DNA of 64,000 nucleotides. It comes from Amphiplicatus metriothermophilus. GTDB lineage: Bacteria; Pseudomonadota; Alphaproteobacteria; Caulobacterales; Parvularculaceae. The position numbers and the translations under genes are program-made. The notes under the pieces were generated by a model. The model ran no database searches. It had not been told where the DNA came from and was given only the letters and a program-made list of their open reading frames with translations. Of this stretch, positions 48,984 to 56,734 are shown in pieces; the stretch's first letter is position 1, and every line of letters begins with the position of its first letter. The stretch is from positions 571,501 through 635,500 of the forward strand of contig NZ_FZQA01000002.1 in NCBI RefSeq assembly GCF_900199215.1. The letters run 5' to 3'.

Positions 48984-49586
48984 ATGGCTGTCACGCTTCC
49001 CGATTTGCCTTACGCCCGCGACGCGCTCGCGCCGCACATTTCAGAAAAGACCCTCGATTTCCATTACGGCAAGCATCATCAGGCCTATGTCGACAACCTG
49101 AACAAGCTGATATCAGGCTCCGCGCTCGACGATGCGAGCCTTGAAGAAATCATTCTGGAGACGGCCGGCAAGTCCGACAGCCAGGGCGTCTTCAACAACG
49201 CCGCGCAGGTATGGAACCATACGTTCTACTGGCGCTCGATGAAGCCGAACGGGGGCGGGACGCCGGAAGGCGACATCGCCAAGGCGCTCGAGAAGGATTT
49301 CGGCGGCTATGAAGGCTTCCGGGAAGCGTTCGCCAAGGCCGGCGCCACGCAGTTCGGCTCCGGTTGGGCGTGGCTCGTCGTCAAGGACGGCAGGCTCGAG
49401 GTTCGCAAGACGTCGAACGCGGAGCTTCCGCTGACGGAGAAAGGCGTCACGCCCCTCCTGACCATGGACGTGTGGGAGCACGCCTATTACCTCGACTATC
49501 AGAACCGTCGCCCCGCCTATATCGAAACCTTCCTCGACAAGCTCGTGAACTGGGAATTTGCGGAGGAGAATCTTAAGCTGGTTTGA
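48984..49586 (+). CDS. sodB: Superoxide dismutase (Fe/Mn)
   Basis: The 200-residue enzyme has the four metal ligands: His in 'HYGKHHQAYVDNLN', His in 'WNHTFYW' and Asp/His in 'MDVWEHAYYLDYQN'. 'GSGWAWLV' and 'RRPAYIE' are family landmarks. The Gln and Gly positions suggest an iron form, but metal choice cannot be settled. It removes superoxide in the cytoplasm. A strong terminator follows the stop codon. Confidence 0.97.
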   Translation: MAVTLPDLPYARDALAPHISEKTLDFHYGKHHQAYVDNLNKLISGSALDDASLEEIILETAGKSDSQGVFNNAAQVWNHTFYWRSMKPNGGGTPEGDIAKALEKDFGGYEGFREAFAKAGATQFGSGWAWLVVKDGRLEVRKTSNAELPLTEKGVTPLLTMDVWEHAYYLDYQNRRPAYIETFLDKLVNWEFAEENLKLV

Positions 49587-49682: not shown

Positions 49683-52600
49683 TTAAAACTGACGGCGAAC
49701 GTTGAGCGTGTAAGTGCGGCCGAAGAAATCATAGCCGACGCCAAGCGGGAAGTTGCCAGCGGCTGACACCAGCACCTCTGCCGAATCGGCCTTCGGGGGA
49801 TCTCTGTCGAAGACGTTGTTGATGCCCGCGGTGACGCTCCACACGTCGTTCCGCCAAGTGACGGCTGCATTGTGCACCCAGTAGGACTTCACGAAATCGA
49901 CATCACGGCAAAGGACGTCCGAGGTGTCCCGCGCGCCGCTGAGATCGATAATCGGCCGACAGGTGTCGCGCGCGCCGAAGGTCGATGGGGCGTCGTTGAC
50001 CTGCGGTCCTATATAGCGCGCCCGCCACAGAGCACGCCAGTTACGCCAGTCCGCAATGGCCGTGCCTTGGCCGCGCCATCTAGGATTGCCGACTTCGCGA
50101 ATGTTGTCGTCAAGCGAATCGATGATTTCTTCTTCCTGTTCGAAAATAAACGTGCTGCGAACGTCAAGAGTGAAATCAACCGGGTCGTTGCCGATCGAGA
50201 AAGGCGTGGCCCCAAGCAGCGTGTTGAAATCGAAACCGCGCACCGTCACCCGGCCGATATTAATGAACCCGGCGTCAACGAGATCGACGAAACCAGTCGC
50301 CGGATCGCGGGTGATGCGGCCGCAGAATGCGCTGCTCAAGCCTGCGTTGTTCACGTAGCAGTCGTTAAACAAAAAGGCGACACTAGGCTCTTCGATCGTG
50401 TTCGTCACCTTGATGTCGAAGTGCGTCGCAGAGATTTGGAAGCGCAGGTCATCGCTCACGCCCAGAGTATCGAACGGCACATCGAGGACGACGCCGCCCG
50501 TAAACGAGCGCGACGTTTCCGCGTCTAGGTCGGTCGTACCGCCGGTCAACACTTCGATGCTCGACGCCCCTGTCAACCCTAAGCTGAACGGATCGACGCC
50601 GTCGAGAATGCAGTTGTCGATCGTGGTCTGGTTTCGGTTGTCGCCCGTGGGATCATAAACCCCGCCGTTGTTCGCCGCCGCTGGCACGATACATGGATCG
50701 TTGAAGGCGTTGACGAAACCAGTCGCCCCTCTGAAGAACTGCTCACGCAAGTTCGGCGCACGAAACGAAGTGCCGCGCGAGCCACGGAACGCCAGCCAGT
50801 CAAACGGCCGCCACAGGCCCTTAAACGACCAAGTCCAATTCGAGCCGTAAAAGGTTTCATTGGTCAGGCGACCGGAGAAGTTGAGCGATAGCTCTTCAAA
50901 GAACGGACGGTTTCTCAACAACGGAAGGTCAAGCTCGCCGTAGCCTTCCTTCAGCTCGCGGCGACCTGTGGCCCCCCTGTCGGAGAAGAAGCCAATGAAA
51001 TTGCCATCTTCGGCGTTGTCGTCGGGGCGTGATTGAATTTCATCCTGACGATACTCAAAGCCGAGCACAAGCGCGGCCTGACCGCCGGGCAGCTGAGCAA
51101 TATTGCCTGTGATGAAGCCGCTGATGATGCTCTGTTGGATCTCTGTCGAGAAAGTCCGAACGCCGAATAGGTACTCTTCCTCTTCAGGCGTCAGTCTATT
51201 CGATCCCTGGACGCTCTCCGACAGTAGGTCCACCGGCACGCAGTCCGGACCGCCCAAGAAACCGAACAAATCGAAGTCGCCGATGTTATTCGGAATCCCG
51301 TCCCCATCCGGATCGATGCCGCAAGCAAGGCTACCGTCCGGCAGGCGCGTGGTTGTCAGCAGAGAAAGCGCCAGCCGATCCTCAAGAATACCCCGACGTA
51401 CGGAGTCGCCGAAGGACCGCTGGTAGCTGCCGCTCAGTTCATACGTCCAGTTATTGAAGTCGATGAATCCGCCGCCGCCTTGACCATCGAAAAATGGCAA
51501 CTCGCCGCGAATCCCGCCTACCAGTCGAATTTGCGACTGGGTCACTTCGTTGTTGTTCCGATCCCCGTTTACCAGAACGATCGGAACTACCGGGACGCCG
51601 ACGCCCAAACCGCCGCAAATTGATGGGTTGGCCGCCACAGCTTCATCACCGCAAGGGTTCAGCGGGTTCCAAGCCGGCAACGTGGGAAAAATCTGAGCGC
51701 CGCTGCTAAGGATCACCGAATCCCGCTGGAAATAGCCAACCTCAAAGAACGTCTCCATGTTGTTCAGCTCTTGGAGCTCGTAATTTCCAAAAGCCATGAA
51801 AGAGATGCGCTCAAGCTGGGAGATCAAGTCCTGATTCCGAACCAGATCCCGACTCGGATCAATGCCGTTATACAAGGGCGCTTTTACGTCGACGTCGCGC
51901 AACCCGTCCCCATTGAGATCAATGTCATCCGAATAATTGGGGATTCCCGTATTGCTCTGGCCTGGCGTAAAGAAGATATCGCCTTGACCGGAGAACAGGT
52001 TGCGGAATCGGCCGATAATCTGCGTCTTACAGGTGTTAATCGTCGTTCCCGGGAAAACGTCGACTTCCAAGCTCCGCCGCTGGCCGTTTTCGTCGATTTC
52101 AATGTGCTCATTGCACAGAAGTCCGCGATCGGCGACAGACATCTGATCGCGACGGAAAAACTCCGCGCCGACACCGATGAATCCACGATCGCCCGTAACG
52201 CCCCACGTCGCGGAAACCTGGGAGGTTTTACCGCCGCCCGTTTCCGGAACGCTGAAGGCCGTTTCCAGCTCAAATCCGTCGAAATCGTCACGCAAGATGA
52301 TGTTGGCCACGCCTGCGACAGCATCCGAACCGTAGATCGAGGAGGCGCCGTCCAACAGCACTTCAACCCGACCGATCAGCGACGATGGAATAAGGTTGAG
52401 GTCGGGCGAAGTCGGCGCGCCTTCCACGCCGCCAGGGCCAAGCCGCCGGCCGTTGATGAGAACGAGGGTGCGCTCCGGATCGATGCCCCGCAGCGACAAC
52501 GTCGAGGCGCCCGGTCCGTTGTCAAGCACGAAACCTGTAAAGGTGTTATCGATCTGGACGCCCGTCGCCACCGTTGATTCTTGCTGATTCTTGCAGCAGT

Positions 52601-52881
52601 CGAGCAGTATCGAAGATGCCGAGTTCCCTGGAGACTTGACCATCGATGACCTGAAGCGGTTGGGCCGACGAAAACTCTGTCCTTCTGACCCGAGAACCGG
52701 TAACGACGATCGTGTCTTCAGATCGCACGTCCTCGATAGTTTCATCTATTACCTCCGGCTCGGGCGGGGTCTGCTGCCCCAATGCAGAACCGTAAGCGGT
52801 CATGGCGAAAACCGAAACGCCTGCTGCAAGCGCCGTTCGCAATCCGCCAGTTACGAAAAGTGCACGCGATGAGCCCGTCAT
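49683..52881 (-). pseudogene. TonB-dependent receptor, frameshifted by a 10-base tandem duplication
   Basis: Translation starts well at the ATG at 52881: signal peptide (1-35), TonB-box-like 'DTIVVTGSRVRR' and the start of the plug ('LGIFDTARLLQES'). At 52575-52594 the unit TGATTCTTGC (+ strand) occurs twice in tandem; the frame is lost there and a stop follows 8-10 codons on. With one copy the frame joins perfectly to 'STVATGVQIDNTFTGFVLDNG', the plug and the 22-strand barrel down to the terminal Phe at 49683, giving 1062 residues. Barrel and plug landmarks include 'VEVLLDGASSIYGSDAVAGVANI' and the final 'GRTYTLNVRRQF'. As it stands, no full-length receptor is made unless the duplication is lost or is a sequencing error. 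Cargo is unknown. Confidence 0.88.
52575..52594. repeat. Perfect 10-base tandem duplication
   Basis: TGATTCTTGC at 52575-52584 is repeated at 52585-52594. It lies inside the plug region of the TonB-dependent receptor gene, and removing one copy restores a single 1062-codon reading frame. Such units can expand or contract by replication slippage. Confidence 0.95.
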
Positions 52882-54141: not shown

Positions 54142-55107
54142 TCACGGCGTCGCGGCCGCGGCGGCGGCCTTGCCCCATTCGCGGCGCACGCCCGTCAGCG
54201 TCAGGAACGGCGCCGCCACGAAGATCGAGGAATAGGTTCCGATCACGATCCCCCAGATCATGGCGAAAGTGAAGCCGCGAAGCACTTCGCCGCCCAACAC
54301 GTACAACGATAAAAGCGCCAGCAGCGTCGTGCCCGAAGTCATGATCGTGCGCGACAGCGTGTCGTTGATCGAAAGATCGAGCAGCTCCGGCAGCGGTTTT
54401 TTCTTGTATTTGCGCAGGTTCTCGCGCACCCGGTCATAAACGACGACCGTGTCGTTCATGGAATAGCCGACGATGGTCAGGATCGCGGCGATGATCGACA
54501 GATTGAACTCGAGCCGGGTCGCCGCGAACATGCCTAGCGTGATGATGACGTCGTGGACGAGAGCGACGATCGCGCCGAGCGAAAACTGCCATTCGAAGCG
54601 GAACCAGATGTAGATCAGCATCATGCCGATCGCGAGCATCACCGCGATCGCGCCGCGCTGAATGAGCTCGCCGGAAACGGTCGGGCCCACGACTTCGATC
54701 TTGCGGAACTCGATGCCCTCGCCGAGCAGGCCGCGCAGCGCAGCCTGCACTTCTTCGGACGCGCGCTGCTGGGCGGCTTCGTTCTCCTCCGCGCCGCCTT
54801 CGGCCCGCTGCTGCTCCACGACGACGAGCACGCCTTCCTCGCTGCCGGCGAAATCCTGTATCGCCTGCACCTTGACGTTGCCGAGACCAAGATCGGAAAC
54901 GGTCGATCTTACGCGGCCGATGTCGATCGGCTGATCGTCAACGACTTCGATGGTCACGCCGCCGCGGAAATCCACTCCGAAATTCAGCCCCAGCGTCATC
55001 ACCGCGACGATCGAGGCCGCGACGAGCGCCGCTGAGAACGCCAGCGCGAGACGCCGCCACTTCGTGAACGGAATTTTCGTGTTGTCGGGAATGATCTTGA
55101 GGGGCAT
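54142..55107 (-). CDS. secF: Protein translocase subunit SecF
   Basis: The ATG at 55107 (321 aa) lies ten bases after the secD stop. Six transmembrane helices surround a large periplasmic domain (about 30-130). 'GLNFGVDFRGG' (TM1 edge), 'GYSMNDTVVVYDRVREN' and 'SINDTLSRTIMTSGTTLLALL' are diagnostic. SecDF uses the proton gradient to pull proteins across the membrane after SecA. It is the last gene of yajC-secD-secF. Confidence 0.97.
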   Translation of the reverse strand: MPLKIIPDNTKIPFTKWRRLALAFSAALVAASIVAVMTLGLNFGVDFRGGVTIEVVDDQPIDIGRVRSTVSDLGLGNVKVQAIQDFAGSEEGVLVVVEQQRAEGGAEENEAAQQRASEEVQAALRGLLGEGIEFRKIEVVGPTVSGELIQRGAIAVMLAIGMMLIYIWFRFEWQFSLGAIVALVHDVIITLGMFAATRLEFNLSIIAAILTIVGYSMNDTVVVYDRVRENLRKYKKKPLPELLDLSINDTLSRTIMTSGTTLLALLSLYVLGGEVLRGFTFAMIWGIVIGTYSSIFVAAPFLTLTGVRREWGKAAAAAATP

Positions 55108-55117
55108 CGCGCCGCTC

Positions 55118-56734
55118 CTAGATGGTGATCGTGGCGGGACGCCGCGCAAGCAGATAACCGCCTGCGAACATGCGCGTCAGCACGAATGCGGTGAACACGG
55201 AGGTGACCACGCCGGTCGCCAGCGTCACGGCGAAGCCGCGCACCGGCCCCGCGCCCAGCTGGAACATGATGAGCGCGGCCAGGAACGTCGTCACATTGGC
55301 GTCGAGAATCGCGGACCAGGCTTTCCGATAACCCGTCTCGACGGCGTTGACCGGCCCTTTGCCCGCAACGAGCTCCTCGCGGATGCGTTCGAAGATCAAT
55401 ACGTTGGCGTCGACCGCCATGCCGACGGTCAGCACGATGCCGGCGATCCCGGGAAGGGTGAGCGTCGAGCCGAACAGCGACAGGGCCCCGGCGATGAGCA
55501 CGACATTCGCCAACAGCGCCATATCGGCGTAAACCCCGAAACGGCCGTACGTCGCGACCATGTAAATAATTACGGCGAGGAAGCCGATGACAAGCGCCGT
55601 CGTGCCGGCGCGCACGGAATCCGCGCCGAGATCGGGCCCCACCGTGCGCTGCTCGAGCGTCGTCAGCGGCGCCGGCAGCGCGCCCGAACGGATCAGGGTG
55701 GCGATGCGCGCGGCCTCATCGGGGGAGAAATTGCCGGTGATGCGCCCCTGTCCGCCCGGAATCGGGGTCTGGATACGCGGCGCGGAAATGATTTCATTGT
55801 CGAGCACGATGGCGAACAGCTCGCCTACATGCTCCCGGGTGTAGTCCGCGAACCGGCGCGCGCCGCGGCTATCGAAGGAAAAGTTGATCTGAAAGCCCGC
55901 GCCGTCGGTGTTCAGGCCGGCCGAAGCGGTCTCGACCATGTCCCCCGTAACCTCCGGCTCTTCATAGAGCACCAGCGCGCCGGGTCCTTCGCTGGCCGCG
56001 AAGGGGACCAGGATTCGGCCCGGCGGCAGCAGGCCGGCTTCGGCGTCGGCGAGGCTCACCGTCGGATCGACCCGGTGAAAGCTGAGCTGCCCCGTGCGAT
56101 TGACGATGCGCTTCAGTTCTTCTGGGTCGTTGTCGCCCGGCGCCTGAATGACGATCCGGTCCGCGCCCTGAGGCTGAATCGACACTTCCTTGTTGCCTGC
56201 AGGGTCGACCCGGCGTCGGACGACTTCGATTGAGTCCTGCAACGCCTCGGCGGCGTATTGACGGCGCGCCTCCGGCGTCAGCCGCACTTCGATGAGATCG
56301 CCCTGTACGGAAACCGTATAGGGCGGCGCAGTGAGGAATGCGACGCCCGTGCGGGTCACGTCGCGCACTCTGCGGGCGGCTTCGTCCGCCTGATCCGGCT
56401 CGCGCACCCGCAGTGAGATCGTCCCCATCTCCAGATCGACGCTTGGCAGGCTGACCAGGGCGACGCGTTCGCGACCGCCTGAGGGACGCATCGCCCGCTG
56501 GATTTCCTGACGCATGCCGGAGAGCCGGTCGGCGATGACTTTGTCCGTATCGACGCCGAGCAGGAGATAGGAGCCGCCCCGAAGGTCGAGACCGAGATTG
56601 ATCGTGCCCTTCGGCAGGAACCCGGGCAGCCGGTCGAGCTGTTCTTTCGGAATCAGATTGGGCGCGGCGAAAATCGCGCCGAGCGCGACGACCGCGGCGA
56701 CCAGCGCGACCTGCCATTTGGAGAACTGGAGCAT
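55118..56734 (-). CDS. secD: Protein translocase subunit SecD
   Basis: The 538-residue product has the N-terminal helix, 'GLDLRGGSYLLLGVD', the large P1 periplasmic domain and five C-terminal helices with 'GMAVDANVLIFERIREEL', the motif containing the proton-relay Asp region. It works with SecF and YajC. It follows yajC after 44 bases and precedes secF after 10 bases. Confidence 0.97.
   Translation of the reverse strand: MLQFSKWQVALVAAVVALGAIFAAPNLIPKEQLDRLPGFLPKGTINLGLDLRGGSYLLLGVDTDKVIADRLSGMRQEIQRAMRPSGGRERVALVSLPSVDLEMGTISLRVREPDQADEAARRVRDVTRTGVAFLTAPPYTVSVQGDLIEVRLTPEARRQYAAEALQDSIEVVRRRVDPAGNKEVSIQPQGADRIVIQAPGDNDPEELKRIVNRTGQLSFHRVDPTVSLADAEAGLLPPGRILVPFAASEGPGALVLYEEPEVTGDMVETASAGLNTDGAGFQINFSFDSRGARRFADYTREHVGELFAIVLDNEIISAPRIQTPIPGGQGRITGNFSPDEAARIATLIRSGALPAPLTTLEQRTVGPDLGADSVRAGTTALVIGFLAVIIYMVATYGRFGVYADMALLANVVLIAGALSLFGSTLTLPGIAGIVLTVGMAVDANVLIFERIREELVAGKGPVNAVETGYRKAWSAILDANVTTFLAALIMFQLGAGPVRGFAVTLATGVVTSVFTAFVLTRMFAGGYLLARRPATITI

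Follow-up and report, generated by a model that had tools for sequence, protein, structure and literature searches.

The window, by which we mean the whole 64,000-nucleotide stretch of DNA that was analysed, carries a TonB-dependent receptor gene whose frame is broken by one extra 10-bp unit (Table 1). The unit TGATTCTTGC occurs twice with zero mismatches, as the first-pass annotation of this DNA had claimed for a perfect 10-base tandem repeat, and the receptor frame changes exactly there. The same annotation had proposed that removal of one copy yields a single frame of 1062 codons, and the arithmetic is correct; the span contains 3199 bases, and 3199 - 10 leaves 3189, or 1062 codons plus a stop. 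In the ORF list the downstream half appears as a frame of 1020 aa (49683-52745), separate from the 111-aa ORF, and both frames are open across a 200-bp overlap (52546-52745).

Table 1. Features of the receptor gene and its flanks, with positions in the window
Feature	Position	Strand	Remarks
TonB-dependent receptor gene, frame broken	49683..52881	-	length equivalent to 1062 codons, with a surplus 10-bp unit
N-terminal ORF, 111 aa	52546..52881	-	signal peptide, conserved DTIVVTGSRVRR segment and initial part of the plug; out of frame past the repeat
In-frame remainder	49683..52577	-	rest of the plug and beta-barrel; final residue F
Perfect tandem duplication, 10 bp	52575..52594		TGATTCTTGC x2 on the + strand; homologues lack the repeat
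secF and secD	54142..56734	-	bound the receptor slot on the left; conserved
Fe/Mn superoxide dismutase (SOD)	48984..49586	+	bounds the receptor slot on the right; conserved
ORF, 212 aa	53232..53870	+	no Pfam match; homologue 44% identical in the corresponding slot of L032

Judged by eye, the 111-aa ORF has MTGSSRALFVTGGLRTALAAGVSVFAMTAYGSALGQQ as a typical signal peptide, and its DTIVVTGSRVRR segment, which lies ahead of the plug, looks like a TonB box. The 1020-aa frame begins MKLSRTCDLKTRSSLPVLGSEG and, again by eye, has no N-terminal signal peptide. The plug domain PF07715 matches the downstream half with 54.1 bits (cut-off 23.9), and the match begins only at profile position 28 of 107 because the break falls inside the plug. 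The beta-barrel domain PF00593 matches with 103.1 bits over profile positions 125-436 of 436, and the protein ends in RRQF. Because the signal peptide is present in the 111-aa frame only and is missing from the barrel frame, we read the span as a disrupted TonB-dependent receptor gene rather than a working receptor. Two approaches to the substrate of the receptor were uninformative; all matches to NCBIfam models were far below their cut-offs, and the coverage of PDB sequence matches (BtuB, CirA, FepA) extended little beyond the plug.

Homologues and the genomic slot

When the two halves of the receptor were compared by tblastn with the fetched loci, both aligned end to end in homologues. At the DNA level, the frame stays open across the junction in each of the 26 homologues, and the repeat is found in none of them. 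The closest homologue, L032, comes from a Marinicaulis sp. MAG (genus now Hyphococcus, Parvularculaceae) and is 65.7% identical and syntenic; the 111-aa ORF is 55.8% identical to it over residues 14-104 (tblastn), and its codons at the site of the repeat are LLQEAAVATGQQIDNTF. Since the 26 homologues are open and free of the repeat at this site, the 10-bp duplication is, on this comparison, the derived state and arose on the lineage of the present genome. The comparison set holds one genome per species; a scan of genome contigs for a close relative returned one orthologue only, and a search of the genus returned nothing closer than 48%.

The gene order around the receptor is the same in L032 as in the window: orf321, secD, secF, the homologue of the 212-aa ORF, the receptor, SOD, a squalene/phytoene synthase family gene, a ClC channel and GlnE. 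We note that the N-terminus of the 212-aa ORF is secretion-like and that this ORF is kept beside the receptor in L032. The same-genus genomes G001 and G003 have an orthologue (43% identical, tblastn) after secF, the arrangement also seen in the window and L032. In G004 and G008 the SOD gene follows secF directly, with about 50-70 bp between them, and G006, G002 and G007 have no receptor beside secF. From this patchy distribution the receptor can be classed as an accessory gene, which fills the slot between secDF and SOD in part of the genus, and its absence beside secF in these five genomes indicates that its loss is tolerated. The genome contains 32 plug-domain loci, which makes one receptor fewer plausible. 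Accessory status is also suited by the third-position GC content of the receptor gene (GC3 0.69, vs 0.80-0.83 in its neighbours).

Chance expectation and assembly of the repeat

The repeat by itself proves nothing, because order-2 Markov simulations give 0.45 perfect tandem repeats with a period of at least 10 per 64 kb. A repeat whose period is not divisible by 3, located exactly at the point where the homology switches frame, goes beyond chance by our estimate of ~1e-4, which is roughly 0.45 x 20/64000 given that the frame must switch within about 20 bases there. A sample of 464 kb, made up of the window and 20 stretches of 20 kb from the 3.16-Mb genome, contains 7 perfect tandem repeats of period at least 10 against 3.0 expected. 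Six of these are contained in longer ORFs that stay open across them; the repeat in the window alone sits at a broken frame. A perfect 13-bp tandem repeat of this genome was seen close to the beginning of an ORF of 497 aa (L103 1535-1560, G000:C4).

The contig ends of the assembly bear on whether the second copy is real. A motif from the terminus of contig C13 recurs at the ends of C6, C7, C10, C12 (twice) and C18, and these seven contig ends (L091-L097) have exactly 95 bp in common (some pairs, 96), beyond which they diverge next to TGACCCGACCCC. The common sequence belongs to a repeated element that starts with TGACCCGACCCC and is probably an insertion sequence, and we infer from these ends a short-read de Bruijn assembly (k about 95) that was cut at the copies of this element. 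With k at ~95 the 20-bp repeat falls inside single k-mers and is not ambiguous. A sequencing or assembly artefact, in which case the cell would carry only one unit and its receptor would be intact, would agree with a remainder of the gene that looks fully intact; however, the exact 95-bp overlaps imply that the repeat was resolved within a k-mer, and the 10-bp unit is neither a homopolymer nor GC-extreme, so that we consider an artefact unlikely. An assembly of this kind would have dropped a minor allele in the culture, and a mixture of alleles may thus be present.

Probable recent loss of function and its alternatives

Past the break, the remaining 964 codons contain no stop and no second frameshift. 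About 2.6% of random substitutions in this part of the gene would create a stop. For a 95% probability that one or more stops appear, ~110 such changes (3.5% of the gene) would have to accumulate. Provided that the gene now evolves neutrally, the break would be younger than 3.5% divergence, a value that is a bound and not a date. As no other stop or frameshift is seen, the break is probably recent.

We consider it likely that a de novo 10-bp duplication has recently inactivated an accessory TonB-dependent outer-membrane receptor. The duplication would most likely have arisen by replication slippage, causing a frameshift within the plug domain that inactivated the gene. The 111-aa stub would be exported and functionless, and since the frame of the plug and barrel lacks a signal peptide, the outer membrane should be devoid of this receptor. 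The first-pass annotation had offered either a reversible switch or a recent loss of function, and the latter gains from the derived state of the duplication and from the lack of further decay. A perfect short tandem repeat could slip back, an event expected to be rare, and the loss is perhaps not permanent. The mutation is of an ordinary kind and has little importance beyond annotation, where the locus should be named as a frameshifted TonB-dependent receptor gene and not as a switch.

The switch proposed earlier would be a phase-variable contingency locus, at which gain and loss of the 10-bp unit turn the receptor on and off and reversibility has been selected. We regard this as improbable. 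Built-in switches are tracts of several units that persist at orthologous sites, and two units with no tract in relatives do not indicate a dedicated switch. The 26 repeat-free homologues weigh against it, as does the position of this repeat as the sole gene-breaking one among the 7 found in 464 kb. In its favour, the remainder of the gene is undamaged, and surface receptors are classic targets of such variation, for example the Haemophilus hgp receptors with their CCAA tracts (PMC2651432). These too are TonB-dependent receptors with a frame set by repeat number, but the CCAA tracts comprise many units and differ from strain to strain, and the three-unit minimum applied to 7-9-nt repeats in that work lies above the two units seen here.

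Two other systems can be set beside the window receptor. The pneumococcal capsule genes are the nearest true parallel, as spontaneous short duplications there give reversible loss (Waite et al. 2001, 2003, cited in PMC4022640), and this precedent speaks for switching. In both cases a de novo perfect short duplication breaks a surface-related ORF and slippage could remove it, but in pneumococcus variants and revertants were observed, whereas the window receptor is represented by one genome, with no observation of switching. Reversion of a 9-bp insertion, a duplication, is expected at about 1e-5 or less (PMC4022640), a low rate that argues against a switch; our literature search on reversal rates of short duplications found nothing beyond this source. 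In Xenorhabdus lrp, tandem duplications abolish function, as we propose here, as one of many routes to its loss, and PMC6786866 explicitly concluded that they do not represent phase variation. The lrp units are longer (26-116 bp) and lie in a regulator gene, in contrast to the 10-bp unit in a receptor gene of the window.

A reversible two-state locus could also be maintained in the population of this environmental alphaproteobacterium, with a duplication that arises and collapses often enough to serve as bet-hedging, which might counter a phage using the receptor. An undamaged remainder fits a repeatedly restored allele as well, and we hold this reading to be very improbable. If both forms occurred among population reads, the locus would illustrate on a small scale how a de novo duplication can serve as a simple switch in an environmental bacterium. 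Programmed or leaky +1 frameshift recoding, which would produce a receptor of full length plus some three additional residues and would be permitted by the 200-bp overlap of open frames, is extremely unlikely, as the element has no counterpart in the homologues and inspection by eye revealed no slippery motif.

Frame-broken receptors were also encountered elsewhere. In G028, a relative with a single contig, a TonB receptor is split into two overlapping frames (L070 702-3679, G028:C1), and a tandem repeat looked for at its break was not found. A second TonB receptor of the present genome (L050 1348-3108; G000:C13 about 163287-165047) has an in-frame TAG at L050 2092-2094 and is cut at the contig end by the repeated element, a probable insertion sequence.
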